From NCBI GenBank assembly GCA_949358305.1, contig OX442315.1, positions 3,968,001 to 4,032,000 of the forward strand: a DNA stretch of 64,000 nt, given 5' to 3'. The translations under genes and the position numbers were made by a program. Positions within the stretch are counted from its first letter, which is position 1; the number at the start of each line of letters is the position of its first letter. The stretch is from Strigamia acuminata. Its lineage: Eukaryota; Arthropoda; Chilopoda; Geophilomorpha; Linotaeniidae. Of the stretch, positions 8,003-56,876 are shown one piece after another. The notes below the pieces were generated by a model, which was not told the origin of the DNA, ran no database searches, and worked only from the letters and a program-made list of their open reading frames with translations.

Positions 8003-8074
8003 TTTCTTTCGGTAATTCTACGATTTGGGTTATCTTATTGAGAGATCACAAGTTCAGATTTGAGATTTATTTCT

Positions 8075-11220: not shown

Positions 11221-12102
11221 TCTGGGGACGATCTGCTCTTATTTTTCACCTAATTTTCGGCGTAATTTTCGCGGGATTCGCGATTTTTGCGGCGAAATTC
11301 ATTTTATTTTCAGATTTCGCCGATTTCGACGATTTTCGCCCGAATCTTCGCTTCGAAACGTTCGATCAACGTTCTGGACTGCCAGGGCAGTCTATTTCAC
11401 CATTGCTTCGTTAATTTTGTCCGAAATTCCGCGGGATTCGCGAATTTCGCGACAAATTTTTGTTTTTTTTCAGGTTTTTTTTGTCAATCTGGATTCACTT
11501 CTCCGCTTAGCACGTTGCGGCGGATACAACGAGAATCCGATACACGTTTATCGGCGGCTTAGTTCCCCGGTGAACGGTCGTAATCATCGATCTTTAGAAC
11601 ATTTTCACGAAGAGCCTCGAATTTTTTCGAGAAGAATTCGGATTTTAAATCCGAATTTGCGTTTTCTCCAGCTTTTCGAGAAAGCTGAGCCGTGCCTTCA
11701 TTTGCACGAGAGTTGCACCCGCGACCGATTCATCTATTTCTCCTTCTTGTCGAAATTACTTGTTAGCATTAAGATAATATTTAAGGCTTTTGGGGGACAT
11801 TTAGCATCGTATTCGCCCTTCGATCGAATCCGATCAAGCGATTACGTATTCTCCGGTAGTGCTTGTCGTGGTACAAGTGAGGTTTCCCGCGGGCCCAGGT
11901 GCACCGATCGGACCCTCTCAGACTGGCTACCGGAGGTTTTTGAATTCCTTCAGAAGGAATTGCCCAATTTGACGGTTTCCGCCTCGAAAGTGCTTCGCAT
12001 CGAGTGTTGTGCTTCGTTTTCGTGCAGTGCTACGGTGTCTCCTGTGTGCCATTTCTCTGAGCCTGTGTTTTCGTCGCAAAGTGTCGAGTTTTCCACGCCA
12101 CG

Positions 12103-15100
12103 ATGCACAAATCTGGAGATTCATCGAGCAAAATTCCCGTACTCGGAGTTGGGAACTACGAGCAGTGGCAACGATCAATGCGGATGCTCTTAAAGTCCGA
12201 GGGCCTTTGGAGGCATGTTACCGAGGAGAAGGAAGTCGAACATTTAGCTACCTTGACGGAAAAAGAAAAGGATCGGTACATGACCAAGAAAGATAAAGCC
12301 CTCGGTCACATCTATATCCAAGTCAGCGAGCCCAAAAGATCAGTGTTGGACACGTGCAACACGCCGAAAGAAGCGTGGGACGCGCTGGCTAAGATTTATG
12401 CGCCAAGCTCACGGGCTAGAAGAGCAGCCATGCGTTGGGAGTTTTTAAATCTCCAGATTGGACCCAACGAGGATATGCCGGATTTTATTGCCCGAGTCGA
12501 TCACTACGTGAGGCAATTAAAGGACGTTAAGGAGGAAACTTCGCCCGACCACCACGCATATCAGTATCTTAAGGGATTGCCACCTGAGTATGCCCAGGCA
12601 ACGTTCGCAATTTACCATTGGCCGGATGACAAATTTACACCGACTTTGGTTGCCGAACAGTTGATATCCGAACAATCTCGTTTAAGATCGGCGGGTCTGC
12701 TTCGAACAACTCCACCGACGGCTCATACTTCTGCGAAAGGACAGTTTCGCCCGCGTAATAAATCCGGTGCCCGTGATTTGTCAACTATTCGGTGTTTCAA
12801 TTGCGACCAGATGGGCCACTACGCGAATAAGTGCCCCCACCCTCGACGTGAGAATCCGAACCCGAATCAGTCGACGGCTTCCGTACAACGCTCCTCGAGA
12901 AGTAAGAGTCGAAGACGGAATAAGAACGCCGTCGCCAAGGTCGAAGACACTCGTCCTCGAGGGAGCTCACGTCCAATTCGGAAAGGGACATTTTTCTGCA
13001 GTGCACCGCAAGTCGTTGAGCGCCCAGTTGCCCACTTTATGCAATCCAATGAGTGGATTGTTGACTGCGGCGCTACCGACCATGTGACCCATGTGCGAGC
13101 TTTATTCACCGATTTTACGAACATTCCGCCTTTCGACATCGAGTTAGGACAAGGGAAATCGCAGGTCACTGGACGGGGAACGGTTCAACTTCTCACTTCA
13201 GTTGATGATGCGGATTGCGTTCTCGATTTAACGAATGTTCTGTACGCACCGAATTTCGAAGCAAATTTGATTTCGGTGTCGAAAATCGATAAAACGCGTC
13301 ACCACATCCACATTTTCAACGGAGATGTCAACGTTTACAAGTCAGACTATCGTATGCCTATCATCCGTGCAAAAGAACGTGGCGGCTTGTATTATTTGGA
13401 CGGTTTGTGTTCGGTTCCCATCAGTTCGACAACGGTTTCGACGGCCACTCCACCGGTAATTCAACCTGTCAAAACACTGGTCACGACAGAAGTGGATTTC
13501 GACAATGTTCCGAAACCGGTTAACGGAAAACAAAAGCAACGGGAAATTACAGACTATCGTTTTGATCCGCCAGCGGTTGAGAGTGCGAAGGCAATTCCCA
13601 CCCAACCAATTCCAAACCTGACCGATCCTACACATTTTCTTGTCCTTACTCCTATTCCTCCACCGGTCATTGTCAATCCGACCACACAGTCCTATTCCAA
13701 TGCTCTGCAATTTCTACCGATTTCCCCTCCTCCTGGCAATTTACCTCCGTCACAGAAGAAGGTAATTGCTAATCCTGCTTCGGTTAAAGATGCCACCGGT
13801 CTATGGCATAGTCGACTCAGTCATCTGCATACCAATGCAATGAAGCTTCTGGCAGCCAACGACCAGGTTTATGGTTTGCAACCAGCTGAAGTTCGACAGG
13901 AATTGTCGTGTAACGACTGCAGAATTGCTAAATCAACCAGAGCTTCGCATAAACCGGACCCGAATCCCTGTACATCGAAACCATTGGATCTTCTACACAT
14001 GGATTTGTGGGGACCAGCCCCGCTCACGTCACTGGGCGGTTCGGATTATGTTTTTACCATCATCGACGATGCCACACGTTATACGTGGATTATCCCGTTG
14101 GCCCAGAAGTCGCAAACCTTTGGGGCATTCAAAGACTTCGTCGCCCGCGTTGAACGAATTCAGAATACGCGTGTGAAAGCGATTAGATCCGACCGTGGCG
14201 GCGAATTCATGTCAAATGAATTCTTGAACTATCTCAAAGAAAAGGGCATCCAAGGGCAGAGGACCAATCCCGCGTCGCCCCAAATGAACGGGACTGCCGA
14301 ACGCATAAATCGAACGATGGCCGACAGTGTCCGATCTCTTATCTCCGAAACTCAACTCCCGGATGACCTTTGGGCGGAACTCGCAGTCACTTTTGCGTAT
14401 GTGAAGAACCGAAGTCCGCATTCGAGATTGAATAACCAAATTCCGTACATTCTATGGCGACAACGAGCATTGTCTTTACGACACCTACGCAAAATGGGGT
14501 CCAAATGCTGGGTGCATTACACCGCGCAAGGCCGCAAGAAACTAGATCCGCGTGCATGGGAGGGATATCTCGTTGGTTACGCGACTGGTACCCGCGGATA
14601 TAGAGTTTGGAATCCAGTAGAAGATCGAGTTTACGAAACGGTTCACGTCAAGATCGATGAACGCCAATCATATCGGAAATCCCGTCGTGGCGCATCTCAA
14701 CGGCCCGAAGAAACTTTTTCTGATGTCGGACAGCAATCGGTTTCGTTTAACGACAACGTCCAGTTCCATGACTGGCCAAGAGGATCCGATTCCGAACATT
14801 CTGACCATTCCGACGACGACTCCGATAATGGTGGAGCAAGCCACGCCAGCGGCGTATCGACATCTCACTCTGTTCATACACCGGTCATCCAATTGCCGCC
14901 TCCGACAACGCCAGAGCAGTTACTGTTGGATGCGTGTGCACTGCAATTACCGAGTTCGGCAAGTCTAGGACATTCACAGTCCTATCCTGTGCTTTATCAG
15001 GAGGGCGATACGGAGGATGATGCCGAACAAATTAACGATGATCGAATTGACGAGATTTCACTTTATCCCGGTACATCTGAATTCACTGGGACGTCTGCAG

Positions 15101-15501
15101 AGCAATCCCCTCGCCAGTCACCGCCGGGTTCTCCAGCTAGATACATCACATATCGCCGGAAAACCCGTGGAGCAGACTTATCTCACACAGTGTCGGTATT
15201 TGACAATACTCCAATGTCTCCTGCTCCAATTCAGCACATAGTCGGGACAGAAGTCTTGCCTGCTACGGATCGCCATACTGCATATATTTGGCGACCCATT
15301 GGGGGAGATTCCGAGTGCAGTGACTGGAGACGCGAGGAACACCTCCGGAAGGATCAAGTCCCGGGATCGATTAAAACGGACGTTTACTACTTTCCGATGC
15401 CCGGCATTCGACTTAGATCTCAGAGAGATGTTGAGGAATATTGTATGCTCAACAATATCGATTATGAGCCAGAACTGTTTATTTGGAGCAACATTGAGTA
15501 A
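12103..15501 (+). CDS. gag-pol: Copia gag-pol, first part: Gag, protease, integrase
   Basis: 1132 residues from ATG 12103. The Gag domain of the copia type occupies about 1-200. A CCHC zinc knuckle is at 231-244 (CFNCDQMGHYANKC). The protease active site is at 321-323 and reads D-C-G (WIVDCGATDH) where D-S/T-G is usual. The GAG_pre-integrase zinc region (HSRLSHLH ... CNDC) precedes an integrase core with Asp 634 (MDLWGP), Asp 697 (RSDRGGEF) and Glu 733 (GTAERINRT), a DD35E spacing. A serine-rich spacer follows. The frame ends at TAA 15499-15501, and RT continues in the same frame right after it. An 880-nt leader precedes the ATG. Confidence 0.92.
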   Translation: MHKSGDSSSKIPVLGVGNYEQWQRSMRMLLKSEGLWRHVTEEKEVEHLATLTEKEKDRYMTKKDKALGHIYIQVSEPKRSVLDTCNTPKEAWDALAKIYAPSSRARRAAMRWEFLNLQIGPNEDMPDFIARVDHYVRQLKDVKEETSPDHHAYQYLKGLPPEYAQATFAIYHWPDDKFTPTLVAEQLISEQSRLRSAGLLRTTPPTAHTSAKGQFRPRNKSGARDLSTIRCFNCDQMGHYANKCPHPRRENPNPNQSTASVQRSSRSKSRRRNKNAVAKVEDTRPRGSSRPIRKGTFFCSAPQVVERPVAHFMQSNEWIVDCGATDHVTHVRALFTDFTNIPPFDIELGQGKSQVTGRGTVQLLTSVDDADCVLDLTNVLYAPNFEANLISVSKIDKTRHHIHIFNGDVNVYKSDYRMPIIRAKERGGLYYLDGLCSVPISSTTVSTATPPVIQPVKTLVTTEVDFDNVPKPVNGKQKQREITDYRFDPPAVESAKAIPTQPIPNLTDPTHFLVLTPIPPPVIVNPTTQSYSNALQFLPISPPPGNLPPSQKKVIANPASVKDATGLWHSRLSHLHTNAMKLLAANDQVYGLQPAEVRQELSCNDCRIAKSTRASHKPDPNPCTSKPLDLLHMDLWGPAPLTSLGGSDYVFTIIDDATRYTWIIPLAQKSQTFGAFKDFVARVERIQNTRVKAIRSDRGGEFMSNEFLNYLKEKGIQGQRTNPASPQMNGTAERINRTMADSVRSLISETQLPDDLWAELAVTFAYVKNRSPHSRLNNQIPYILWRQRALSLRHLRKMGSKCWVHYTAQGRKKLDPRAWEGYLVGYATGTRGYRVWNPVEDRVYETVHVKIDERQSYRKSRRGASQRPEETFSDVGQQSVSFNDNVQFHDWPRGSDSEHSDHSDDDSDNGGASHASGVSTSHSVHTPVIQLPPPTTPEQLLLDACALQLPSSASLGHSQSYPVLYQEGDTEDDAEQINDDRIDEISLYPGTSEFTGTSAEQSPRQSPPGSPARYITYRRKTRGADLSHTVSVFDNTPMSPAPIQHIVGTEVLPATDRHTAYIWRPIGGDSECSDWRREEHLRKDQVPGSIKTDVYYFPMPGIRLRSQRDVEEYCMLNNIDYEPELFIWSNIE

Positions 15502-15504
15502 ACA

Positions 15505-17076
15505 TTGCCGACTATTCCGGGTGTTCGTCATGCCGCTCATCTCTGTAGAACGGAACCAGCTTCCTACGCTGAAATCCCGAAATTCTCCGACGCTCCAAAA
15601 TGGCGCGAAGCCATTAAGGAAGAGCTCGACACATTTACCGAAAGAGAAGTTTATCTCGAAGTTCCAAGGCCACCGGACACTACGATTCTTGGCTGCAAAT
15701 GGCTTTTTAAGCTGAAGACCGATGCAGCAGGGACGATCACCAGATATCGAGCTCGTTTAGTCGCCCAGGGTTTTCGTCAAACTCTCGGAGTCGACTACGA
15801 TGAAGTTTTTAGTCCGGTGGTGAATTTTGTTTTAATCCGTTTATTCTTCTGTCTTCTCGTCGTGTTGCGTGGTTGGAAGGATGCACACTTAGATGTGAAA
15901 TGTGCGTACCTGTATGGCGAACTTAAACACAAAGTCTACATGCGGATCCCTGCAAGTGCCACATGTTCCAACCCCAACAATGTTTGGCTACTCGTTAAAT
16001 CCCTTTACGGCCTCCACCAGTCGGGAAGACAATGGTTCGAAAAGTTAGACGAGACGCTTCGAGACCTCGGATTCCGAAGAATGCCAGCTTGCAACTGTGT
16101 TTACGTCTTTGGAAACTCCGCTATCATGTTAATCTACGTGGACGATATTATTTTATTCTACGCGTCCGACAGCGTTTTCGACCAATTGATCCAACTTATC
16201 AGTTCGAAATTCCAAATCGTCAACCTCGGTCCGATTACGAAATTGTTAGGCGTCGAGTTCATTCGTGATATGGGACGCACATTCATTTCCCAACGTGCTT
16301 ATATCGCGAAAATCATTAAGAAATTTGGAACCTCGACCAACAAGCTCGTGAAAGTTCCCGTGACACCCGGGACGACACTCGTCAGAGGATCGACCGAGAA
16401 TTTGGAAGATTTTCCATACCGCTCGCTGATCGGATCGCTGTTATTCTTGGCTTCGAGGACACGCCCCGATATACTTTACTCCGTTATCCATTTATCGCAA
16501 TACAACACCTGCTATAATAAGACCCACATTCGAGCATTGCTTCAAGTTCTACAGTACGTCGCTAACACCGCGCACTTTTGCATCGAATTATCCGGCTGTA
16601 CATCTTCACAATTATGGGCTTACACCGACGCTTCGTGGGCATGCGATCCGGAGACATCATTAAGTTTCGGCGGTTATATTACTTTCATCGGCAACATTCC
16701 AATCGGCTGGTCTTGCCAAAAACAGTCCACCGTGGCGTGCTCAACAATGGAAGCGGAATTCATCGCCCTTGTTGAGTGCGTCAAGGAGCTTTACTGGTTG
16801 GACCACGTTTATCTTCAGTTTCCGATTCTCAACCGATTATCGCGACCCGTCATTTATTCCGACGCTCTCTCGGCCATACAGTTTACTTCCAACGATGTCG
16901 AAACTTCGAAAACTCGACATATTCGTGTACGTTATCATTGGCTCAGGGAGTGGTATACGGCGGGACGTTTCGAACTCCGCAAAGTGCCCGGCGATCTCAA
17001 CGTCGCCGACATCTTCACGAAGTGGCTCGGATCGGAACGTTTACAATCGTTGATTTCTCGGATTTTCCGATTGTAA
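15505..17076 (+). CDS. pol: Copia pol, second part: reverse transcriptase and RNase H
   Basis: Same frame as the preceding gag-pol part, separated only by TAA and one codon. RT contains YARLVAQGF-like and SLYGLHQSGRQW motifs and the active site YVDD at residues 211-214. RNase H has AYTDASWACD, CSTMEAEF and the ADIFTKWL ending typical of copia. There is no good start codon at the beginning, so it was part of one polyprotein. It could be expressed only by readthrough or complementation from another copy. All catalytic residues are intact. Confidence 0.9.
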   Translation: MPTIPGVRHAAHLCRTEPASYAEIPKFSDAPKWREAIKEELDTFTEREVYLEVPRPPDTTILGCKWLFKLKTDAAGTITRYRARLVAQGFRQTLGVDYDEVFSPVVNFVLIRLFFCLLVVLRGWKDAHLDVKCAYLYGELKHKVYMRIPASATCSNPNNVWLLVKSLYGLHQSGRQWFEKLDETLRDLGFRRMPACNCVYVFGNSAIMLIYVDDIILFYASDSVFDQLIQLISSKFQIVNLGPITKLLGVEFIRDMGRTFISQRAYIAKIIKKFGTSTNKLVKVPVTPGTTLVRGSTENLEDFPYRSLIGSLLFLASRTRPDILYSVIHLSQYNTCYNKTHIRALLQVLQYVANTAHFCIELSGCTSSQLWAYTDASWACDPETSLSFGGYITFIGNIPIGWSCQKQSTVACSTMEAEFIALVECVKELYWLDHVYLQFPILNRLSRPVIYSDALSAIQFTSNDVETSKTRHIRVRYHWLREWYTAGRFELRKVPGDLNVADIFTKWLGSERLQSLISRIFRL

Positions 17077-17851: not shown

Positions 17852-18437
17852 GAGTGGAACAAGATGCTTCGTGTTTGCTGTTAGAACAGTCTGCGGTAGA
17901 CCATGTCATTACATTAATTTAAGTGTATTCAAATTGAAAAAAGAAATTGTATAGCTACCATGAGAACATGGTAAGGTTCATTGGACATTTTGGTCTGGAT
18001 CCAAATTTTAACTCGGCTCTCTGGTCCAAGTTGGATGGGTTTCACTGGGAAAAAAAATTATTCACTGATTATAACTAATCTTACCTACAACTGAACGTTT
18101 TACCATTTTCAATTCTTGTGTATAATGAGACAATTGTTGGAATTTCAGTTGTATTAAATTTGTTGACGTAAACTTTTGTTCCCTGAAACGCAATATTACT
18201 CTACTTTAAACGTTTGTCCCAAAAAAAGCAAATGACTAAAGTTTGTACTTACTCTTGAAAAAGTGATATTTTGAATCATTGTTGTGACGTTTTTCTTTTT
18301 TAGCACTTGATGCAAATCTGTGACATTGTCTAAGCGGAACGTTAGACTGTGATAGCATTCTACAATTTTTTACATTTTAACTTTGTCAAAATTGATGAAC
18401 AATAAGAATACTTGGCTCATTATTCTTTGTACTTTAC
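17852..18437. other. AT-rich spacer, probable intron or intergenic
   Basis: Nothing recognised. It lies downstream (minus sense) of the DEG/ENaC exon at 18780-18438, so it may be intron of that gene. Confidence 0.4.
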
Positions 18438-18780
18438 CTTGCGCAGTCTGGTTCTTCACTGATTTGTAATATTCTTTCATGGTTTCGTATGTGTAAGCCG
18501 AAGTTAGATGTATTGCTGGAAAGTCACCAACGGATTCTTCAGAAATGGCAGCATCAACTTTGATAGGCTTTTGTCTGTAAATGACAATTTGTTGCCAGCA
18601 CTGGAATACACACATCGAAAGTGTAATTATGCCAAAAGTTAGCCGGCACATGTGATATATGGATGGACATTTTTTGTTTTTCGTAGTTTCGACGGATGAA
18701 AATGTCGATTCTTCTAATTCCTGTTTCACATACGTTTTAGCAATCCTTCGAATTGCTTGATCTTTTCTATTGTAATGCAT
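18438..18780 (-). CDS. DEG/ENaC-like channel, N-terminal exon (partial gene)
   Basis: ATG at 18780 opens about 114 codons to a consensus donor (AAG|GTAAAGT at 18438/18437). The peptide has a basic N-terminus, one membrane span (about residues 45-65, LTFGIITLSMCVFQCW) and then a VGDFPAIHLTSAY stretch, in the place of the FPAVTICN-type post-TM1 motif of DEG/ENaC subunits. It is clearly diverged from the pair at 27-40 kb. Later exons were not found downstream, where the copia insertion starts 0.6 kb away. It may be an exon of a third cluster member or a remnant. Confidence 0.5.
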
Positions 18781-19554
18781 ACTATTGGAAATTAAGAATA
18801 ATTAAAACTTAAAAAACATTCGCAATTTTATGGTATGGACGTTCCCATTGACAATTGAAACAAACCACATTATTCTCAAAAGAAACAAAAATCTCAGAGT
18901 TTCAATAGATTTTGTCATTTGGCCGCTTCTATTAAGCTTACAGCTAAATTGAGCTAATCAATATTAATTCTTCTTTTTGTGCATCAACCACTTTTAATGT
19001 CATGTGACCGTTTGGCCACCCACGGTGACCTGCATTACTCCACACACTGCTCACTGGCCCTAAAGTCATTCCTCGTTGTGGGGTGAACTGAAACAGTATA
19101 AAGGAGGAGGGAACTGAGTGATGTGGTGAGGAGAGGGTGTCACCGACCGTGACAAAGAGAGGAGCACCAGGTCTCAACCGAGACAGTCGTGTGTCAAGGA
19201 AGGTCCTGAAGTCAGCAGGGGCAGCTGTGTCCTTTGCTATCTCCGCTCTCCTTCCCATTCACCACTGCGACGCTCAGTAGCATGACGATGGGTCTGCTAC
19301 AGCCTCCATGAGTGGCTGCATGGGTTGGAGGTGAGTTCAGCAGAATGTTATGTGTTAACCGACAACGTCATCGTCTCTATCATTTAAGTGAGGTTACGTC
19401 CCACCTATGGTATCCAGTCCCCAGGCTGCCATGGCAAAGCCATAACCTGTCACAGTCAGTACAAACATAAGTTTACTTAATGTAATTACATTTTATATCT
19501 GACATAGTTTAATTGGCACGACTCATAATAATTTTCCATCTTAAAACTTGTAGA
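18781..19554. other. Unassigned; contains a TATA-like promoter motif
   Basis: No gene recognised. GTATAAAGG at about 19097 (plus) is followed by a GC-richer stretch with TGACC/GGTCA-type inverted words, similar in layout to the LTR-like piece at 9983-10229. Too weak to call an LTR. Confidence 0.3.
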
Positions 19555-27481: not shown

Positions 27482-30400
27482 ATGGTTTGCAAACTTAAAC
27501 CTCGGTTCCGCAAGAGAGTCCTTCAATTGGTGCGAAACCATAATTTATCTCGAAATAGTGACGACGCTTTCTTGAGTATCATGGTGAAGATAAACGACGG
27601 CAAATCGATTTGGATTGTACGCATCTTGTGGGTTGCAGTCCTCGTAGTGAGCGTACTACTCTGCACCGCATTGGTCTACGACCGATTAACATACTACATG
27701 TCTGAACCATCGGTGGTCAACATATACACGCAAGTAGATAATATCGTCTCGTTTCCCACTGTTGTGTTGTGCACAACCACCACTCCCGAATTAACAGAAT
27801 ATGCCTTAAAGATTGATAATGGTGTGAGTTCGGAAGGTGTGAGTTGCATAGATCCTCTGTACTGGTACAGTCGTGATTGCAACGTGAGCGCAATAAAATT
27901 ATGGTCCATGTTTAACACAAGCCACATTGTTGACAACATCCACACTCTACAAGTAAGTGTTACATCTGTCTCTTAATAAATGGAAATTAGATTTCTCTTT
28001 TATTAGGATAAATCTGTAAATCTAAAATATAAAGTGAAACATGTATTCTCTTCTGTGGGATTGTGTCTTCTTATGACACTTGGTAAGAAAATACAATTGA
28101 TTTCATTGGATTGTCAGTGATGTTCATTACTGTCGGTAGATAAAAAAGTTCGACTGTCAAATCCAAAAAACCAATTGGTTTTTAAATTTGACGAATCCAA
28201 GCTTGGAAACAGATGTTCAAATCCTTTGATCGGTGTAAGTGTAATGGGCACATCAAATAGTCTTTATTCTCAGATTATTTTAATTTCTTTATGGCGTAGT
28301 TTATATTAGCAGATACAGACAATTTCCCACTTCAATGGAAACTTTCCTTCCCATCTAACCATACGGCACTAAGTGTTGCATCTATTCAAAAAGTGATTAT
28401 AATTATTTAAGAACTATAGCGGTTGTGTGATCATTTTATTGTGTTGTAGTACAAATTCCTGAACAGGTCCAAACACGTGTGCAGTTCAATTGCAGATTTT
28501 GAATTCTGCGAAGAAGAGTGCACAAGGCAGCAAATAAAAAAAATTAAGGTGGATTGCAGGTTTGTACGATCAAGAAGAATGCCGTAAAACATCAAGTTAA
28601 TTTTTTCTTCTGTTTAGGTTGCCATTCATGCGAAACTTTGAGCATTTACCAGAGTGTCAACAAGATTATAGTGAGAAGTATGATGACGCGAAAGAAGCAT
28701 ACATGGGTCTTTGGAAAGCCGGCAATGATACAAATACTTGCAAGTGCACCACATCTTGCAAACATCAAATTATTTTGAATCGTTTAATAATTGAAGCAGA
28801 ATCCGGATCGAATTTGAGAGTCAAAGTGATGGATTCGATAAGAATCGCAAAAGAAGTGGCAACTTACGATATAATAGCGCTACTCTGCGATTTAGGAGGA
28901 AACATCGGACTCGCTCTTGGAGTTTCTTGTCTCATGATTGCTGAGATAATCATCATTCTAATCACTCTGCTTATTCAAAATGTGAAAAGATCCAAGCAGA
29001 AATCACTTCAGTTTTCTATGCTAGAATACAGAGCTAAGAAATGTCTTAAGAAATATGTGGATGAAAGCGAAGAACATTTGCTCGATAGTTTCCAACTAAC
29101 TGGTTTGAAGTACATTTTGGCTAAACAAAACTACAAGAGAAAGTATATATGGATTTTTCTCACGGTACTCTTAAGTTTTGCGTGTGCTTTTAAGATTTAT
29201 GATCGCTTTGTGTATTACTTGTCCTATCCGAAAACCATATCTGTAAGAATGGTGGAAATTGAAAACATTGAACTTCCATCGGTAGTTTTATGCTCGGATA
29301 GTAGTAAACTGGTGGCTCAAAAGTGGAAGTACATGAAGCTGAATAACATCTCTGGTTGTCCGGATGATTTTGATATGTTAAATATGGTGAATGCTAAAAT
29401 GTCTTTTGATCAATTGTGGTCATCGTCTGCAAAGGGTTCAAAATTTATGCTTCTGGCAGAAATGGTATAATTATGGAACCTTCATTATGTTTTTGTAATT
29501 AATGTCTAACTTTTTCTGTTGGAAATATAGGATATTGCTAAAAATACTCCAGTTCCAATAACTATTGAACCTTTTTCAACGGTTTTCGGTTTCTGTTCAA
29601 AATTTAATCCGGGTAAGAACACTTACAAGAATTCATAATGGCAATAACAAAGTTGTTTTCAATTATATTAAGTTTTGTTTTTTCAGGTATTACTAAATAT
29701 TTTCCATCTTTTTCTGGTTATACGGTAGTCATTTTTTCAAAGAGCGGCAACTGTCTAATGAAAACAAAAGTTAATAAATAAACATTTTTTAAATCTTATT
29801 TTATTATTAATTCATTTTGCTTTTGAAAAAGATATTTCAAATATTTCCTGGCAACGAATTCAGTTTGAAAACATATCTGCACATGCAAGTGACTGGAAAT
29901 TATATACTTCTCTACACAATGCAAAAAGTATATGATGTTGCAAACAACGAATAATATGTCTAATGGTGGCTCATTTTTGCAGTTAGTCAGAATAAACACA
30001 CCAAAGAGTCGATGCGTTGGAAGAACAGAACACGTGCAATGTGTCAAAAACTGCTTAGATAAAAAAATGGTGGCAAAGTTTTCTTGCAAGTATGCTATTA
30101 TACTTACAAATCTTTTTTTGCCAGTTCCAGAAAAAGTTTATTTTACTTCATACATATCAAAATATAAAGATTTATTGCCAATTTGTGACATCATATGAAT
30201 GATGTCATAAAAAATCAATGAATTTTTGCTTTATCTGGTGAATCAAGTGAAAGCACTTATTCTGGAGCTGGTCCTAACTTCTTAAACGCCGTCATCGGTT
30301 GAGAAAAGAAGATGTTGTGTCTTTTTAGATTGCCTTTTATGAACTCATCTTTGGAGATGTGTCCAAATGCAGAAACAGCCAAACTGGTCAAATCACAATA

Positions 30401-30713
30401 CCTTTCTATCATGCTGAAAACGGATCCGACAAGCGACTGCAATTGCACCAAACCTTGTGTCGTTTCAATCTACAATCTTGAATTTAATGTGTTGGCGCAT
30501 TTGTCAGTCCAAAGTGTACTAACTGTTAAAGTTTTTCATAATTTGCAAGAAGTTATTGAGGAAAAGTTGTCATTTTCCTTCGTCAAACTTCTTTGTGATG
30601 TTGGTTCTACCGTATCTTTTATTCTTGGTCTATCGGTTATGGAATTTTTACATGACATTTTGCTATTCCACAAATACAAACAACAAATAAAATACACGAA
30701 ATATAAAATTTGA
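27482..30713 (+). CDS. Double DEG/ENaC channel protein (two subunits fused), copy A
   Basis: Eleven exons with GT/AG borders join in phase into 809 codons: 27482-27952, 28007-28082, 28140-28232, 28313-28392, 28450-28559, 28618-29464, 29531-29612, 29687-29769, 29832-29927, 29983-30089 and 30329-30713. Unit 1: TM1 about residues 41-66, post-TM1 VSFPTVVLCTTT, cysteine-rich ectodomain, CRLPFMRNFE before TM2, and a G-V-S selectivity motif (LALGVSCLM, about 370). A cytosolic linker of ~60 residues follows. Unit 2: LTGLKYI in place of the HG motif, TM1 (about 455-480), ELPSVVLCSDS, CXnC ectodomain, KLPFMNSS, and TM2 with G-L-S (ILGLSVMEF). Ectodomains are short for the family. Topology fits, because both termini of a subunit are cytosolic. 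It is probably a Na+-permeable, ligand- or mechano-gated channel. The alternative, two genes with a missed boundary, is unlikely since exon 6 spans TM2 of unit 1 and TM1 of unit 2 without interruption. Confidence 0.85.
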
Positions 30714-33171: not shown

Positions 33172-36100
33172 TTATTTGTATTTGTGGAATAGCAAAATGT
33201 CGTGTAAAAATGACATAACCGACAAACCAAGAATAAAAGATACGGTAGAACCCATATCGCAAAGAAATTTGTCGAAAGGGAATGACAAGTTTTCTTCAAT
33301 GACTTTTTGCAAGTTATGAACAACTTTAACAACGAGGAAATTAGGGACGGCATCGAAACCCACGAACACATCAATTTCAGGAAGGTAGATTGAATCGACA
33401 CAAGATTTGGTGCAGTTGCAGTCGTCTATGGGATTGGTTTCAAGCTTGATAGAAAGGTATTGAGATTTGACCAATATGGCTGATGTTGCATTTCTACACA
33501 TTTCTAGAGTTGAATTCATAAAAGGCAATCTAAAATGGCATACGGTAACATCACAATTTATGGCACTTGATCCACCAGATGGGGCAAAAATTCATTCACT
33601 TTTTTAAGATATCATTTGATGAAATCACAAAAATGTTAATGAATTTTTATTTTTTGTATGTTTAAAGTAAAATAAACTCTTTCCTCAACTGGAAGATTTA
33701 TAAGGGATTCCATTTATTGGCACCCCATTTTAATTTTTAAAAAACCCATAAATAATTTAATTTCACATTTATTTTTTCACCGTTTAAATTAGTTGTACAT
33801 CTCACTTTTATTTTTTGATTAAATTAAAGAAATTTAGTTCTTTGGATGTTTTGTGGTAATCCCAAATTACTACTAATAAAGGAAATTCCTTAAATCTAAT
33901 AATTTTGTGAAGTCTAGTTTGAGTACCAAAAGAGTTGCAGAATTATCCAGGCACAACAGGATGTTGCCCCCTATGATTGTGTGGAAAACAGCTGGGATCT
34001 AGGGACTACAGGAAGTGCTACATCCTGTTAGCAGGAGAGGATTCTGCTAGCAACTCAGTCTGAACCAAACCATGAACCTGAAAACATCTCACAAAAACAC
34101 ACAACTGAAAACCATTGAAAATCATTGTTTGTTTGAGATAATCACTTCATTTGGACTCTGGGCTCACATCTTGAAATAACTGTTGAGGAACAAATGTGTC
34201 CAAGCATTTGAATGAGATTTCTCTAGTGTATATAGTTATTGTTTAGGTGTGTTATTTGTTGGCACAAATAACATACCGTACTTTCAGTTATGATTTGTTC
34301 TTTGTTTCCATTATGTAATATAATTTGCTTCTGTAGACAGTGATTCACTGATGTATGATTTGTTCTGTACTTTTACTGAGTGAGGTCACTCTTTGCCAAA
34401 CAGTGAATAAAGTGGCAGCCATTTTTAGTTGGTGGTTTTAAGCCAAGCTTAAGAAGATGTCTCCTTACTGTCCAACACTCACCCAACATTCACAGGAACC
34501 CAACAATTGTAGCAGAGGGTGGTTCCTCAGTTGTGGTGAGTGTTGACAACGTTTGAAAAACGTTGCCAAGCATTTTCGATCGTTTTTCGAGCTGCGGAGT
34601 TCGTCGCGCGGCCGGGCGGACAGCGAGCGACGAAGCGCCGCGAGAGAAGACGGTTTTCTTCGCCCCTGCTAAGCAGGAAAGCTTCGTGCGTCGTATACGC
34701 ACTCGCGACGATCGCGATTACGGGTTCGAGACGGTTTTGGGCCGAGGATTTGACGGCAAGCGCCGGGAACGAGCCGAAGAATCGTCGGGCACGGATTCAG
34801 AACGGAATTCGATTGGTTTTTGCGTGGAATCGGTGTGGATTGGATTCGTAGACTGTAAGCATTATTTTCGAGCTATTTTCGTATTTTTCGGGCGGAAATA
34901 TAAGCCCATTTATCGCGAATTTGCCGAAACGAATCCCGACGATGATGTCACGATCCAAGATGGCGGCGGCCATCGCGAAATGCAAAGCCAAGTGCTAAAG
35001 GTAGCACGCGACGGACATCGTGAATCACGACAAATAGGGACGGAAAACGAGGTTTTCACGGAGATTTTCGTGTCCGGGACACGAGAAACGACCACGGTGA
35101 CCGTGAACAGATTCACGGCGTCGCAAAACGATAATTCACGCGCCTGCGAGGCAGGAAAGCTAGATCGCTAGCGGACAAAGCCCTTCCTCTTGATTTGTGG
35201 CAGACGCGTTTTGGACATCTGCATAAAGAGAGCGTTCTTGGTATGAACCAGTCAAAGAGAGTTTTTGGCGTCCTATTAGAGGACAGGGAAATTGCCCCTC
35301 ATGCATCATGTGTAGCAACAGAAGCTACAAATCCGGATATGCCCCCAACACAGAGAGTGCACCTCGGGGAGGTTTTAGATTTAATATATCTAAGTGTTTG
35401 GGATGTCCCACACAAAATGGGAGGACAATACATGGTTTTAGTTGATAATTGTTCGCATTATATCTGGATTAGACATTCAAAGAATGGGGAAAGTGCAATT
35501 GATATGTTTCAGGATTGGAAGAAGGAAACTGAGCATATGATTGGCAGGAAAGTTAGAAGAATTTATTTGGGACATGGAATAGATTATTCCCCAAAAGAAT
35601 TAATTGAATGGGTTGAAATTGCCGAAGGTATTGGAATCGAGATTCCTGGAATTGAATCTACCAACCCGGACATTTATTCCATCTCTGAGAGCGCCAACAA
35701 AGACATTGTAACGGGAGTGAACCGTTTGATACGGGAAAATAGGTTTCCAAACACTTTATGGATGGAACTTGCCAATACGGTGGCATATTTGCGGAATCGT
35801 GTTCCAAAAGTGGGTTTACATATGGAGGCCCCCTATAATGTATTGTATACACGACCGGTATCAGTGAGACACCTTCGGTGCATTGGGTCGAAGGTTAGAG
35901 GTTAAACTTTTCTCATGTGTATTTTCCTTTGAGATTTAGAATCTGTTTTTTCTCAAATGTTTGGACAGAGGGGGAATGTTGAGGAACAAATGTGTCCAAG
36001 CATTTGAATGAGATTTCTCTAGTGTATATAGTTATTGTTTAGGTGTGTTATTTGTTGGCACAAATAACATACCGTACTTTCAGTTATGATTTGTTCTTTG

Positions 36101-39100
36101 TTTCCATTATGTAATATAATTTGCTTCTGTAGACAGTGATTCACTGATGTATGATTTGTTCTGTACTTTTACTGAGTGAGGTCACTCTTTGCCAAACAGT
36201 GAATAAAGTGGCAGCCATTTTTAGTTGGTGGTTTTAAGCCAAGCTTAAGAAGATGTCTCCTTACTGTCCAACACTCACCCAACATTCACAGGAACCCAAC
36301 AATAACACAAGGTTATTTCAGGATATTATCGGTTATTCTCTTCCCGCCGAAGAGAGGGATTACACTCTTCTCCAAGTAAGAGTTGGCCAACACTCTTAGC
36401 CAAAAAAAGTCAAGATTCTCCAGTCGCCACGGCTAGGACGCTCGCCCTTCGTTGCAACAAGCGTTGGGTTGAAGGAGGGAGAATCACCACGTTGCCGAAC
36501 GTAAGCAGATCTAGTTTACGGGATTTCCCGACTAAGACAGCGGAATTCCGCTTGCGTTTGTACTCCGCTCGTATGAGTGGAAATATTCCGTTGGAACCAA
36601 TTCCCGAGACGTACGAAGACGCCACGGACGAGTTACAGCCACGACCGGTGTATCTCGATTTGAGAGCAGTCCAAGACGAGCCGCAGCCCGCCACGAGGAC
36701 GCAGACGAGGACCGAGGCCAACGTCAACTTCCAATTTGACGTTCGAGCGAACTCCGTCGCCCACGCCGAACGATTGGATGCAATCCGCCGATTCCGGACG
36801 GAATCAATCGTGTTCATCGCCTCAGTATTTTTCCTTATTTCTCTTTTCCTCGTCATATCATATTTCGTTATTCAATCGTATATTAATTAATCTTTCTATT
36901 TTGAATTCTTCTTAAAGTCTGGCAAGAACCAGCATTGTAATTAATATCATTTATTTATTGTAAACAATTTCGGGCAGAAATTGTTCTAAAAGTATTTTAT
37001 TAAAGTCAGAGAGTTAAATTATAAAAGTTAGTAATTATTTCTAGTATTTGTATTAAGTATAAGTCTTTTTAAAAGCATCAACGGTCTTAGGTTTACTACA
37101 CTTGAGAACGTTACAGTTTTTAAAGTGTTTTGGCACGGTTCCAGCATGTTTATGGTACGTTTGTTTGCTGATATTGACAAACCTTTAAGACAGCCCGAAC
37201 TTAGAAATTGGTGCCGTTTAGAAACATAGGAATTCATGCAAACGTCTCTTGCTTGTAACAATACTTGATGTTAAGTAGGATGAAGGCAATTGTACGTGTC
37301 CAACATTCTCTAAAACATATGTGTAAGCATATTTTGGAAATTTTTATAACTGAGGGGTCAGTCTCAATTGGGCAGAAACGCAAACGTTGTATCCCAGCTA
37401 AGGTTGTAAATGTAAAGTTTTTCGGACCCGTCCTATGTCCGGGCTACAGATTACAGAGAGTACACTGTAATTACATACTTGCAAGAAAATGTCGCCATCA
37501 TTTTTTGGTCTAAGCAGTTTTTGACACATTCCAAGTGCTCCGTTTTTCCAACACATCGACTGTGTGGTGTGTTTATTCTGACTAACTGCAAAAATGGGCC
37601 ACCATTAGAAAGGTTACTCGTCGTTTTGCAATTTTATTTACTTTTTGCATTGTGTAAAGAAGTGAATACATTCCAGTTTCTGCCATGTGCAGATATGTTT
37701 TCAAATGGAATTCGTTGCCAGGAAATATTTGAAAAATCTTTTTTCGAAGTAAATGCAAAAGAAATGAGTACACTAAAACCGATAATAACTTTTAAGAAAG
37801 GTGTTTTCTTAATTACTTTTGTTTTTATTACACAATTTTCATTTGCTGCTGAAACGATTATGAAATATCCAAGAAAAGATGGAAAATATTTTGTAATATC
37901 TAAAAATAAAATTGTAAAATACTTTGTTAATATTGCTATGACAAATAAATGTTCTATAAAAATAATTACTCGGATTTGATTTTAAACAGAAGCCGAAAAC
38001 CGTAGAAAAAAAATCAAGTGTTACTGGAACTTGAGTATTTTTAAGACCAACCTACATTGTACATTAACACCAGACAAAAATTAGAAATTATTAAAAATTT
38101 TAAATTTCAAATTTTAATTTCCATAATCATACCATTTGTGGCACATCAAATTTTGAATAAATCATAGACCACTTCCACAAATCATCAACAGATACGTTGT
38201 CGCTCATCATTTTCAACATTTCAAAAACATCGACACAATCAGAGACATTATGTTGTTCCATGTATTTTTTCTTTTCCGACACCAGTTTACCGCTGTCCGA
38301 GCATAAGACTAACGAGGGCGATTCAATGTATTCAATTTCCACCATTCTTACAGATATGGTTTTCGGATAGGACAAGTAATACGCAAAGCGATCGTAAATC
38401 TTAAAAGTGCAGACAAAACTTGAGAGCGTGATGAGAAAAATCCACAAATACTTTTTCTTGTAGTTTTGTTTATCCAAAATGTACTTCAAACCAGTTAGTT
38501 GAAAACTGTTAACCAAATGTTCTTCGCTTTCATCCAAATATTTCTTAAGACATTTCTTTGCCCTGCATTCTAGTACAGAAAAATGATGCGATGTTTTCTG
38601 CTTCGATCTTTGTACGTTTTGAATAAGCAGAGTGATCAGAATGAAGAGTATTTCAGCAATCATGAGACAAGACACTCCGAGAGTGAGTCCGATGTTCCCC
38701 CCTAAATCGCAAAAGAGCGCGATGAGATCGTAGGCTGACACTTCTTTTGCGATTCTTATCGAATCCATCACTTTTATTCTCAAACTCGATCCATATTCTT
38801 CCTCAACTATTAAACGATTCAAAATGATGTTCCGTTTACAAGGTGTGCTGCACTTGCAAGGATTTGACGCATTGCCCTTCCAAAATCCAAAGTAAACCGT
38901 TTTTAATTCTTCGTGTATCGAAAAATAATCTCGTTGGCACTCTGGCAAATGCTCAAAGTTTCGCATGAATGGCAACCTAAGTGAAAGAAAATTTGTACTG
39001 AATGTATTCTTCTAATATCAATGTTAAAAGAATGATACTTGTCGATCAGATCGCACCAACCTGCAATGCACTCCACTCTCTTGTATTTGCTGTTGTAGAC

Positions 39101-40158
39101 ACCTTTCTTCACACAAGTCAAAGTCAGCAATTGAACGGCACGTGTGTTTGGTTTTGTTCAGGAACTCCTACTACAATACAATCAAATGATCACACAATAA
39201 CTTGTAGAATTTCGAATTAGAATAATTACTTTTTGAACCGATACACGACTGAGCGTCGTTCGTTTGGATAGGAAATCAAGAACTCCTTCAACTGAGAAAT
39301 TCTCTTTATCTGCCAATACAAACTAACACAAAAGGAATAGATACAGAATACTCTGAGAATGATTGTGAGAATAACGAGTTAATCGTTTGCTTACATTAAT
39401 CGGTGGATTTGAACATCTGTTCCCAAACTTGGATTCGTCAAATTTAAAAACCAATTCATTTTTTGGATTCGATAATCGAACTTTTTCATCTATCGACAGA
39501 AATGAACATCACTCGTGACAATTCTAAATCAAATTGTATTTTCTTACCAAGTGTCATGCGAATACACAATCCCATCGGAGCGAATGCATACTTCACTTGA
39601 TTTTTCAGATTTACAGATTTATTCTAATCAAAGAGAAATACAATTCCATTCTGCTAAGAGACAAATTTAATACAAACTTACTTGCAGAGTGTGAATGCTC
39701 TCAACAACATGACTAGTGTTCAACATGGACCACAATTTCAATGCGCTCACATTGCCTCCCCAACTGTACATTGACAAAGGCTCAATACAAGAACCGGACA
39801 TAGCTTCTGGCTTGGCACCATTATCAGTCTTTAAGGCATATTCCGTAAACTCGGGAGTGGAGGTTGTGCACAACACAACAGTGGGAAACTGGACGATGTT
39901 GTCTACTTGCGTGTATATGTTGACAACCGACGGCTCAGACATGTAGTAGGCTAATCGGTCGTATGTCAATGCGGTGCAGAGAAGCACGCTCACTACGAGG
40001 ACTGCAACCCACAAGATGCGGAGAATCCAATTGGATTTGCTGTCGTTTATCTTCGCCATGATGCTGAAAAAAGCGCCGTCACTATTTCTAGATAAGTTGT
40101 GGTTTTGCACCACTTGACGGACTATCTTGCGGAAACGTGGTTTAAGTTTGCAAATCAT
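33172..40158 (-). CDS. Double DEG/ENaC channel protein, copy B (last intron hosts an LTR element)
   Basis: Inverted paralogue of copy A with the same exon plan: 40158-39682, 39623-39548, 39489-39397, 39309-39230, 39167-39061, 38976-38133, 38051-37970, two small exons near 37940-37850 and 37775-37680, 37585-37479 and 33529-33172; about 800 codons. Unit 1 has VVNIYTQVDNIVQFPTVVLC and TM2 with LTLGVSCLM. The single exon 38976-38133 again runs from TM2 of unit 1 to TM1 of unit 2 (LTGLKYIL, then ISVRMVEIEYIESPSLVLC). Unit 2 ends with CDMGSTVSFILGLSVM. The last intron is about 3.9 kb against 0.24 kb in copy A because of insertions. Exon 3 has lost the donor used in copy A (AATGTAAG in place of GGTGTAAG); the only GT left is 2 nt downstream and would shift the frame, so this copy may be decaying or spliced differently. 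Confidence 0.75.
33530..34175. other. Intron sequence of DEG/ENaC copy B, left of the LTR element
   Basis: No gene seen. Not visibly similar to the short equivalent intron of copy A. Confidence 0.4.
34181..34505 (+). repeat. 5' LTR of the 2.1-kb element
   Basis: TGTTGAGG...CCCAACA, 325 bp, with GAATAAAG near position 225 of the LTR as a possible polyadenylation signal. Confidence 0.92.
35195..35905 (+). pseudogene. Eroded copia integrase fragment, still an open frame
   Basis: 236 codons, open further upstream (about 35150) and with no clear ATG start; the first internal ATG is at 35243. It aligns with copia GAG_pre-integrase and integrase: LWQTRFGHLHKES, then a region where the first catalytic Asp context (HxDxxGP) is replaced by LDLIYLSVW, the second (DNGGE) by YLGHGIDYS, and the NGxxER Glu context by SESANKDIV. 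RENRFPNTLWMELANTVAYLRNR and the C-terminal RHLRCIGSK remain recognisable. The Cys-Cys pair of the zinc region is also altered. Gag, protease, RT and RNase H are absent. It cannot catalyse integration, so the recent insertion must have used proteins from another element. Confidence 0.8.
35977..36301 (+). repeat. 3' LTR of the 2.1-kb element
   Basis: Same 325 bp as the 5' LTR; no mismatch seen on reading. Confidence 0.92.
36573..36890 (+). CDS. Small tail-anchored membrane protein, hypothetical
   Basis: 105 codons from ATG 36573 (the frame is open from 36492). The soluble part is Pro/Glu/Arg-rich (MSGNIPLEPIPETYEDATDE...), followed by a single hydrophobic span close to the C-terminus (VFIASVFFLISLFLVISYF) and a 6-residue tail, the layout of a tail-anchored protein. 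The coding part is more GC-rich than its AT-rich surroundings, like the transposon genes here. It lies in the expanded last intron of DEG/ENaC copy B, on the opposite strand, 0.27 kb beyond the LTR element. No family recognised; it may be a leftover of an older element. Confidence 0.4.
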   Translation: MSGNIPLEPIPETYEDATDELQPRPVYLDLRAVQDEPQPATRTQTRTEANVNFQFDVRANSVAHAERLDAIRRFRTESIVFIASVFFLISLFLVISYFVIQSYIN

Positions 40159-48085: not shown

Positions 48086-51000
48086 TCAATTCCAACAGAA
48101 CTTTGAGGCTTTTCCTCGTTGTTGGTATGGTTTTTTAAATACTGCAGTGATGTTTCGCACGAAATTTTCATCTGCATATTTAGGATTCGGCCTTCGCTCT
48201 CGTCGAGGACGAAGGCTAGTTCGCGGAACTACCGGTTGGGGTTTGCGGGGTTTTCGAGGTGGTTTCTTTGGAGTTTCACCTCTTTTCAACGCCGCTTTCT
48301 TTTCTATAGCAGTTAATCGTTGTCTATGTCTATGTTTAGACTTAATGGGCGCAGATTTGTCAATTTGCACCGAAGTTGAGTCGGATAATTCCATTGGAAT
48401 TTCTGAAGAAGTTTCAGGAATTAATTCCATTTCTTCAGCATCCGGAAGTTGATTACTTTCGTTCATCCATTTAGGATTTTCTTGAGGCGAGTAAGAGGCG
48501 GACTTTTGTCCTATTTTCCAAGTCTCAATCGGGTATGACGGAGTATAGGGATACAATGCTTTAATATTCACTGATTTTTCAATCGAACCATCAGCTAGTT
48601 TGCGTAATTTATACGCTCCGCCTGGAAGTACTTTAGTAATTTCCCACGGTCCATCTCTCTTCTCGGCAAATCCAGCGGAGATATTTTTATCTGCGCACGA
48701 GAGAATGTGAGTTTGTTTCCAAACTAAATCTCCAACTTCAAACTCCGTAATTACGAACTTTTGTTCGTGTATTTTCCTATGTCGTTCAAAATTCAATTGA
48801 ATTCTGCGATGCATCTCTTGATGCGATCTGCGTAATACATCCAATAGTACTCTGACATATTTTTCTGGATTTTCTTTGTCAAATGGATTGGCATGTTTGA
48901 TAATCCTTGGGTCGAAGGGTAATGTTACGATTCTCCCCGTGTTAAGTAGCATCGGGCTTGAGCCCGTTGCCGATGACACATTATTTCGCATTGCAAATGC
49001 GAATTCGTCTAGATATCTTGGCCATTGCGTGTGCACATCTGTGTACAAAGCCAGCATGGTCTTTATATCTCTATTGGCTCGCTCTGTCGGGTTCGCCTGG
49101 GCATGATACGTGCTTGTATGGGACGGGCGAATGTTGTACATTTCGCAATACTCATTGTAAATATCGGAAACAAATTGTTTTCCGTTATCGCTCACAATCT
49201 TTTTTGGGTGTCCCCATCTGTTTGTAACAGATCTTAATTCTTGAACGCAGTTAGCGCTCGTGGCTTTGGTCAAAGCCTTAATTTCAACGAACTTGGTACA
49301 ATTGTCAATAATGACAAAAATATACTGGTTTTGGGACCTTCCCGCGGGTTTTGGGCCCATCAAGTCCATGTTAATACATTCCCAAGGATTGGTCATGTTG
49401 TGTGGTGTGTAAGGAGCTGCGTGCCTTTTCTGTTGAATAGGTTTGTACTGAGCACAGTGCGTGTAGCTTTTGACGTAGTTCCTGACACTTCTACTCATAC
49501 CAGGCCAGAAATATATTAAACGCGTTTTCTCGAGCGTCTTACTCATCCCAGCGTGACCGCTTAGGGGGTGGCCATGACAAGCAAAGAGTACTCGTTTTAC
49601 GAGTGAACTGGGTACAACGGCTTTAAAGCCGTTTCCCGAATCGTTTAATTCCTCTTCGAACGAAGGGTTAAAATAGATGATCATTTGATCACCATCAACT
49701 TCTTTTTTGTCCAAACAATAGTTTTTGACTTTGTTTTTCCATTCTTTTATTTCAGATTGTGGTATCCCAACAACCTTGTCATTCAATAAATATTCTCGAA
49801 TGCGTTTGCATTCGGTATCTAACAACTGAGCATCTATTATTTCTCTCCTTGTAGGAGGGACTTCTTTAAGTACTTCAGTCAACGCACTGTACAAGGTTTC
49901 TTGTACTTCCTCCCCCTCCTTTTCTTCAGAACATTCTTTAGAATTTTCTGAAAAATAGGAACGCACACTAGCCAAATATTCTCGTTTCTCCGGGGCACGA
50001 TTTAATGAAACAGAAGGATTTCCGTCCCACTCAGGCCAGTATTGTTTAATTTCAACAGGTTCCACATGATCACGAAGAGGAATGTCTTCCTCTGTTAGTG
50101 GGGCTCTAGAAAGTGCATCTGCAACTTGATTAGCAGCACCTTTTCGAAAAACAATTTTAAAATTTCCACATTGGATTCTTAAGGCCCATCGGCCAAATTT
50201 CCCAGATGGTTCAGGCGTTCGCATCAACCATTTCAGTGCTTCTGCATCTGACTCTAAAGTGAATGTACCATATTCGAGATATGGTTTAAATCGATCAATA
50301 GCCCACACGACTGCGAGACATTCGAGTTCCGGCGTTGTATAACGCTTCTCCGCTCCACGTAAAACTCTGCTTGCATAAGCTACAGGTCTGGGTACAGAAA
50401 TATTTTTCTGCTTCTTTTCATCGAATATATCGACGTCTTGGCAAAGGACAGCTCCTAAGCCTTCATGTGAAGCGTCAGTCATGACAACAAATGGCAAAGT
50501 CATATCTGGTTTGTGTAGACAATTGTCACCACAAAGTAGCTCTTTAATTTTATTAAAAGCTTCTGTCTGCTCATCTCCCCATTCAAATGGAGTTTTCTCA
50601 TTCATCATACGTGTGTATGGTGCGGCAATAGTTCCGTGATTTGGAACAAACTTCCTGAAGAAGTTAGTCATGCCGTGAAAGCGTTGAATGTCTTTAGCAC
50701 ACGTGGGGGTGGGAAATTTTATGATCGCCGATATTTTATCGGGATCACCGAAGAGACCTTCGGGTTTAATCCAGTGGCCCAAGAATTTTAATTCTGTACG
50801 CCCAAAACGAGATTTCGCTTTATTTATTGTCATGTTGGCTTGGTTAAGCCTTTCCAAAACATCTCGAACATGTTTGAGATGATCATCCCAATTATCTGAA
50901 TACACAATTACGTCATCCAAATAAACTAACGCGTAGTCTTGTAAAGCTGAACCTAAAATGCCTTCCATCAGACGCTGGAAAGTACAAGGCGCATTGCAAA

Positions 51001-56516: not shown

Positions 56517-56876
56517 CTTTTCGCGGATTGGCTTCCGTGAAATCCGCATTTCGGGGGCGACTATTCTGGGGATTCCGGGTGGACCAAACTCTTCCGGAAA
56601 ACGTCCGGGGTGGTGTTGGGAGTGTCAATAGACTGTTTTGTGTCAAGGTTGTCAATTTTCATGTGAGTATTGGAAGGTTCATTTCTGCACATTCTCATGT
56701 ATTTTTTTTCACAGGAGCGACAAGGAGCGATGAAGCGGGATCGAGCGAGAGTGGGTAAAATAAACTGGTTTACGTCTCCAATGCGCGTTCAAGATGGAAT
56801 ACGAACTCGGAATCGACTCCAACACGCGTTCGCGTGACATACGGACGCATTCACGACCCAGATCAAAAAATGATCT
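56517..56876. other. GC-rich flank of the satellite region
   Basis: No gene recognised. It replaces the missing part of the gypsy-2 5' LTR. Confidence 0.4.

Follow-up and report, generated by a model that had tools for sequence, protein, structure and literature searches.

DEG/ENaC proteins are amiloride-blocked cation channels regarded as trimers whose subunits are each made as a separate chain. A subunit consists of two membrane spans (TM1 and TM2) around a cysteine-containing ectodomain, and a His-Gly (HG) gating motif ahead of TM1 is common, though not universal. Other channel families, such as the voltage-gated Na+ and Ca2+ channels and the two-pore channels, went from single-domain subunits to multi-domain chains. 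For DEG/ENaC subunits, covalent linkage is known from the laboratory: trimeric engineered ASIC concatemers with 19-residue linkers work (PMC10329638), and pH50 and amiloride block are tabulated for the dimeric ASIC1a construct 2ASICFP (PMC4529235). These working concatemers and tabulated values suggest that a dimer can act.

The gene family described here joins two DEG/ENaC units in one reading frame. With a profile of four such double proteins, the nearest solved structures by sequence were two centipede channels, PDPNaC1 (the best solved match, PDB 9JF7; 1.1e-31, profile positions 19-405) and BRTNaC1 (PDB 8YMR and others; 1.3e-28, best stretch positions 238-404). PDPNaC1 is a proton-dissociation-permeated channel of the antenna of Scolopendra subspinipes mutilans, a single-subunit homotrimer of 421 residues encoded in nine exons (PMC12714832), and BRTNaC1 is broad-range thermal receptor 1 of the centipede antenna (PMC12804983). 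The kind of channel is already known; what is new, as far as we have seen, is a natural two-subunit chain and its scale. We found no report of a natural DEG/ENaC concatemer in open-licence PubMed Central, in line with the view of an earlier, sequence-only reading of this DNA that no such family is established. A term search of the main text of the Strigamia genome paper (PMC4244043) returned no mention of sodium channel, ENaC, pickpocket, degenerin, or amiloride.

Architecture of gene A and its inverted copy

We analyzed a 64-kb stretch of DNA (the window, C3:3968001-4032000), in which gene A and its paralogue, gene B, lie on opposite strands (Table 1). The introns of gene A are all GT-AG and in phase, the joined exons comprise 2445 bases (814 residues plus the stop), and the same 10 introns were recovered by a purpose-written spliced-alignment program. 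The open frame of exon 1 starts after a stop just before 27470. The 11 exons with consistent phases of the sequence-only reading were thus confirmed, while its 809 codons became 814 residues, a difference that lies only at the border between exons 3 and 4. The borders first given there (28232 / 28313) were dropped since they allow no GT-AG splicing in copy B, and those in Table 1 were adopted because they serve A and B alike.

Table 1. Features of genes A and B in the window
Feature	Position	Strand	Description
Gene A	27482-30713	+	11 exons; start codon 27482, stop 30711-30713
Exon 1	27482-27952	+	Start codon, N-terminus, unit 1 TM1, post-TM1 FPTVVLC
Unit 1 TM1	27608-27664	+
Exon 2	28007-28082	+
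Exon 3	28140-28234	+	End corrected by comparison with copy B
Exon 4	28300-28392	+	Start corrected by comparison with copy B
Exon 5	28450-28559	+
Exon 6 (fused exon)	28618-29464	+	Unit 1 pre-TM2 and TM2, linker, unit 2 TM1 and post-TM1, in a single open frame
Unit 1 TM2	28871-28975	+	G-V-S selectivity tract 28919-28927
Linker, unit 1 to unit 2	28979-29143	+	55 residues, basic, net charge +8
Unit 2 TM1	29144-29200	+
Exon 7 (unit 2)	29531-29612	+	Counterpart of exon 2
Exon 8	29687-29769	+	Counterpart of exon 3
Exon 9	29832-29927	+	Counterpart of exon 4
Exon 10	29983-30089	+	Counterpart of exon 5
Exon 11	30329-30713	+	Unit 2 pre-TM2, TM2, stop
Unit 2 TM2	30582-30668	+	G-L-S 30627-30635
Gene B, paralogue of A	33172-40158	-	Inverted; same 11 exons, same phases; 805 aa
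Fused exon of gene B	38133-38976	-	Unit 1 TM2, linker, unit 2 TM1

Each half of the protein has the features of a complete subunit. A search of both halves against Pfam ASC (PF00858, DEG/ENaC), which had been proposed as a check, placed each unit alone above the cut-off of 23.6 bits, with 51.9 bits for unit 1 and 72.9 bits for unit 2. Hydropathy peaks at residues 43-61 and 383-401 (unit 1) and at residues 458-476 and 782-800 (unit 2) give each unit the two-span layout, and TM1, TM2, and the G-x-S tract are all present in both. Among 34 rows, G-x-S was found in 33/33 covered unit-1 rows and in 8/9 covered unit-2 rows, the exception (L023) lying past a frameshift. At the site of the HG motif, unit 2 of A reads LTGLKYI and so retains the G, while 24 of the 28 close loci have T or S in place of the H. 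By eye, unit 1 showed no clear equivalent of the motif, and its H was not seen in any of the members read. Unit 2 of A matched BRTNaC1 at 1.5e-11 (phmmer). Gene A resembles PDPNaC1 in sequence and in the shortness of its subunits, but with two units in one frame it differs from the single-subunit centipede channels of this type, that is, from BRTNaC1 with one subunit per chain of 431 residues and from the homotrimeric, nine-exon PDPNaC1.

The fused exon carries the junction. It had been described as containing the pre-TM2 motif, TM2 with G-V-S, a linker, LTGLKYI, and TM1 of a second unit, and all of these elements were found in order, within an open frame of 289 codons (28601-29470). Two sequence features had been singled out as telling against the fusion, a stop or a polyadenylation site inside this exon; the exon has no stop, and the hexamers AATAAA and ATTAAA are both absent. 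The eight linkers that we examined have net charges of +5 to +13. Such basic linkers are expected of a cytoplasmic loop and fit the usual orientation of both units, and we therefore take the linker of A to be cytoplasmic, so that the chain would run TM1 - ectodomain - TM2 - cytoplasmic linker - TM1 - ectodomain - TM2. An AlphaFold2 model of a related protein, T1IT41, from a 4-row alignment had a mean pLDDT of 34 and was not used.

Gene B is 72% identical to A. The region of the two genes contains 14 inverted-repeat pairs, 71-87% complementary, which match A piecewise. Comparison of A with B (NG86) gave a dN of 0.169 and a dS of 0.422, and the linker alone gave a dN of 0.082 and a dS of 0.414. 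An apparent stop at the start of exon 5 of B turned out to be a tandem AG acceptor, the second AG of which, three bases on, leaves the frame open. A mobile-element-like insert, of Ty1/copia type by eye and with open frames at 34557-35905, has lengthened the last intron of B to about 3.9 kb.

Paralogues in the genome and relatives in a second species

We then searched the genome (237.5 Mb, 157 contigs) with the fused exons of A and of two remote members, L041 and L042, scoring the best 135 of 1877, 148 of 1614, and 150 of 1440 candidates, respectively. The A query yielded 138 rows. In 121 of these a single match runs from TM2 to TM1, in 114 cases with no stop; the other 17 were dropped. The L041 query yielded 148 rows, of which 147 were kept and one, a partial row, was discarded; the L042 query yielded 150. 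After merging of loci with starts within 1.5 kb of each other, at least 381 distinct loci had a match spanning TM2, linker, and TM1, a lower bound because only part of the candidate lists was scored. In the other direction, small contigs carry six of these loci, possibly as second haplotypes, and assembly duplication may account for some neighbours in tandem that score identically. Of the 381 loci, 371 were scored without a stop at least once and 37 were found by two of the searches. The sequence-only reading had seen the fused gene as a single gene; the fusion stands, the singularity does not.

Twenty further loci, chosen by hand from seven contigs (C1, C3, C4, C5, C6, C8, and C9), were read over about 1 kb each. 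All 20 have TM2 with G-x-S, a linker (31-47 residues by a stricter measure), and a hydrophobic TM1 in one frame. A Pfam scan of 10 of them placed 10/10 above the ASC cut-off, seven with two stretches and three with the TM2 half only. Together, copy B and the hundreds of open paralogous exons make the fusion more than a chance event.

A set of 28 close loci was aligned (L009-L036, where L009 is A and L022 is B). The junction is covered in 26 and is free of stops and frameshifts in 25 of these, the linker of L029 being frameshifted. Four loci are full length and intact (L009, L011, L017, and L021), and B, which is cut in the alignment and whole in the window, is a fifth; many of the others end at the limit of the fetched 1.5-kb flank. 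Six loci (L013, L014, L019, L023, L024, and L029) are interrupted by a stop or frameshift at some point, and pseudogenes or forced alignments may be among them. Three more (L026, L030, and L032) showed a stop in the first genome search and none in the alignment of close loci.

The double genes appear to end after two units. Both A and B, bounded by a start codon and a stop, comprise two, and we saw no chain of three or more where we looked for one. The smallest spacing between neighbouring same-strand fused exons was 4980 bp (among the 121 rows of the A search). Along its strand, L041 shows the TM2 of the previous gene, unit 1 TM1, the fused exon, unit 2 TM2, and the TM1 of the next gene; it is part of a tandem array of double genes, and two further exons found there belong to its neighbours in the array. 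Three loci (L040, L042, and L043) have a unit-2 frame that runs only 9-12 residues past G-x-S. The first exons of L039, L040, and L042 showed no TM2 ahead of TM1, a region in which L043 is cut. As a control for the fusion, the TM2 frames of the single-subunit genes of the same genome (L001 and L044-L046) end about 17-22 residues past the G-x-S region. Separately, a 1016-residue open frame, P0004, contains three ASC stretches, which hints that fusion has occurred elsewhere too.

The protein database searched reaches few relatives of the double-protein family, and our searches returned two matches each. With gene A as the query, the only proteins found were T1IT41 and T1JF12, uncharacterised UniProt entries from another geophilomorph centipede, Strigamia maritima. 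T1IT41 (540 aa; 52% identical to A over 69% of A, with a best match in the genome of the window that is 62% identical) covers the N-terminus, unit 1, and the linker and runs into unit 2 but lacks its end. T1JF12 (546 aa; 50% identical over 48% of A) lacks the start of unit 1; it contains that unit's end, the linker, and unit 2 at both of its ends. Although each model thus misses one end, both resemble A in running from unit 1 TM2 through the linker into unit 2 TM1, and each has two ASC stretches. The same fusion in a related genome, which the sequence-only reading had suggested looking for, is therefore present. A millipede protein with a single unit (P0003) was found as well.

Origin of the fusion and constraint on the linker

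The introns of gene A record a repeated gene structure. Unit 1 has introns after residues 157, 182, 214, 245, and 282, and unit 2 has them after residues 564, 591, 619, 651, and 687, in both cases with phases 0, 1, 0, 0, and 2; the offset between the two sets is 405-409 residues, and the linker has no intron. This pattern is what the joining of two head-to-tail six-exon genes, last exon to first exon, leaves behind. We propose that two such single-subunit genes were joined in this way, an event that would have removed the stop codon of the first gene and the intergenic space.

The 30 units of a tree (19 unit 1s, 10 unit 2s, and the single unit of the millipede protein) were taken from 17 loci and three proteins of the database. 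A branch with support of 97/94, present in 100% of 200 bootstrap trees, separated every unit 1 from every unit 2, and branching was similar inside the two halves, within which several rows are long-branched or partial and support is mixed. One old fusion thus came before the sampled members, whose identity falls to about 25%, diverged from one another. We place this single event early in the history of a centipede lineage, with the expansion of the fused gene to hundreds of loci after it. In the midpoint-rooted drawing the millipede row joins the unit-2 side (83/80), suggesting that the two copies may have diverged before they fused.

Codon constraint was estimated from the 25 loci with a whole fused exon (300 pairs, usable at a dS of 0.05-1.5). 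Median pairwise dN/dS was 0.29 for the linker (190/300 pairs), 0.27 for the pre-TM2/TM2 part (299 pairs), 0.30 for TM1/post-TM1 (298 pairs), and 0.45 for the rest of the unit-2 ectodomain part (279 pairs). The linker is thus constrained like the membrane parts that flank it, which indicates that the frame through it has been maintained as coding sequence. The sequences thus demonstrate the architecture and its paralogues, a shared origin for the members sampled, and selection on the frame through the linker.

These data bear on the simplest alternative, that two genes have separate transcripts and the open frame arose by accident, from an error of assembly, or in a recent pseudogene. A second protein could start at the methionine in the linker of A (FSMLE), yet this residue is A's alone among 25 linkers (V or L stands there in 14 others), and with the position not conserved we ruled out an internal start. 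One or two AATAAA/ATTAAA hexamers occur in the fused exon of 4 of the 25 close loci (L012, L019, L020, and L022, which is B) and none in the other 21, though by position none of these lies between TM2 and TM1. Against two genes stand also the open frames in 371 of the at least 381 loci and in the 20/20 that were read, the fusion in a second species and assembly, and the dN/dS of the linker. We consider this alternative close to refuted. Since paralogues, second species, intron symmetry, codon constraint, and unit tree agree, A and B each very probably encode a two-subunit DEG/ENaC protein.

Alternatively, the chain could be cut in its K/R-rich linker after insertion, giving two free subunits, and the fusion would then secure only equal amounts of the two. 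The charge of the linkers would suit such a cut, but basic residues are expected in any cytoplasmic loop, and both the length (55-60 residues in the 25 close loci) and the sequence of the linker are conserved across the close family, which makes cleavage improbable.

Possible assembly and role of the double chains

The double protein is presumably made as one chain. Its linker would then hold the two subunits adjacent within one trimeric pore, and either an ordinary DEG/ENaC protein with a single subunit or one unit from another double protein would take the third position. Going by sequence, the single-subunit genes of the same genome are possible partners. We tentatively favour this pore of two tethered neighbours plus a third unit, at slightly less than even odds.

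The sequence-only reading had argued that a built-in dimer cannot fill a trimer evenly, a point that overlooked the case of three double proteins, whose six units are enough for two whole trimers. In such a double-barrelled channel the three unit 1s would form one pore and the three unit 2s another, tethered by three linkers. Unit 1 and unit 2 stay distinct groups in the sampled members, as if each kept its own interfaces, G-x-S is kept in both, and the linkers, by either measure of their length, are long if extended. Two neighbours with fixed places in a single pore would, on the other hand, be just as likely to form distinct groups, and we know of no DEG/ENaC channel with a double-barrelled assembly; we regard it as unlikely.

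Somewhat less likely still is an assembly of two double proteins, in which either three of the four units line the pore with one left over, or the channel is fourfold and uses them all. The tabulated values for 2ASICFP channels, and a homotetramer argued from cross-linking in the same report (PMC4529235), would agree with it, and the short ends of unit 2 in three remote members may favour an idle unit. PDPNaC1, the best solved match, is a homotrimer (PMC12714832), and whereas decay would be expected of a permanently idle unit, TM1, TM2, and G-x-S have all been retained in unit 2 of A. The engineered ASIC concatemers resemble A in being covalent tandem DEG/ENaC subunits that still give channels (PMC10329638, PMC4529235), but they are laboratory constructs with artificial linkers, whereas the linkage of A is natural and evolved.

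Returning to the tethered pore of two neighbours plus a third unit, we propose as the overall explanation that these genes encode tandem-dimer subunits which arose by one early fusion, then expanded, and now contribute to tethered 2+1 pores used in sensing, and we give this explanation as a whole a probability of about 60%. By analogy, the family probably serves antennal or cuticular sensing, because its nearest characterised relatives are BRTNaC1 and PDPNaC1 and because its expansion is receptor-like.

For centipedes, the finding suggests a candidate sensory gene family of very large size, of which we found no description in open-licence PubMed Central. The family may even, on a more speculative reading to which we give about one chance in three, consist of hundreds of concatenated dimers of fixed order that form either obligate 2+1 heterotrimers with a shared single co-subunit, much as Orco serves insect odorant receptors, or double-barrelled six-unit channels. 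If true, the 2+1 or six-unit plan would be a new quaternary plan for the channel superfamily. The double chain would also be the kind of step that lies behind the multi-domain chains of other channel families. A two-subunit chain that is natural, old, selected, and multiplied would make the assembly rule of DEG/ENaC channels directly testable, in terms of which positions have to be adjacent, what fills the third position, and whether one chain can take part in two pores.

Apparently unequal units in some remote double proteins

In L040, L042, and L043, remote members of the double-protein family, unit 1 (the first channel subunit) retains a longer TM2, whereas unit 2 is shortened, its frame stopping only 9 to 12 residues past the G-x-S tract of TM2. 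The double glycine preceding G-x-S is replaced by GN or GS in unit 2 of L040, L041, and L043. Judged from these sequences, the two units of such remote members look functionally unequal.

Other open frames and repeats in the window

By eye, one open frame resembled the TM1 exon of a remote member, with a likeness to unit 1 of L039. A Pfam scan of this frame gave no match to ASC, the DEG/ENaC profile, and a search with the double-protein profile found no match at its position. Mobile-element-like frames were also noted by eye, in an insert within the final intron of B (the inverted paralogue of gene A) and, from the open-frame listing, in three further stretches. The same listing showed several frames open on both strands of a region dense in RNRIRLVFESNA-type units; they are open because of the dense repeats, and the region is probably a satellite-like array, not genes.

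Positions of the features discussed (window coordinates unless a contig is named)
Feature	Position	Strand
TM1-exon-like open frame	18370-18801	-
Insert in gene B, Ty1/copia-like open frames and repeated flank	34557-36890	
Long open frames, LTR-retrotransposon gag/pol-like	759-8017	
Long open frames, LTR-retrotransposon gag/pol-like	12061-17076	
Long open frames, LTR-retrotransposon gag/pol-like	48086-54519	
Open frames among dense repeats	56759-59940	both
L045, single-subunit type	C11:5264800-5271200	

Possible tandem units and tandem genes

The protein homology search matched P0004, a database protein (1016-aa open frame; tags lgn and ena), three stretches of which scored as ASC in the profile scan. 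P0004 reads as three DEG/ENaC-like units in tandem, the middle one short, and is a candidate natural trimer in one chain. At L045, the exon order is TM1, TM2, TM1, and a separate search of the window's genome gave an additional TM2 match. From these exons, L045 apparently comprises two predicted single-subunit DEG/ENaC genes in tandem, a layout that could give rise to fusion.
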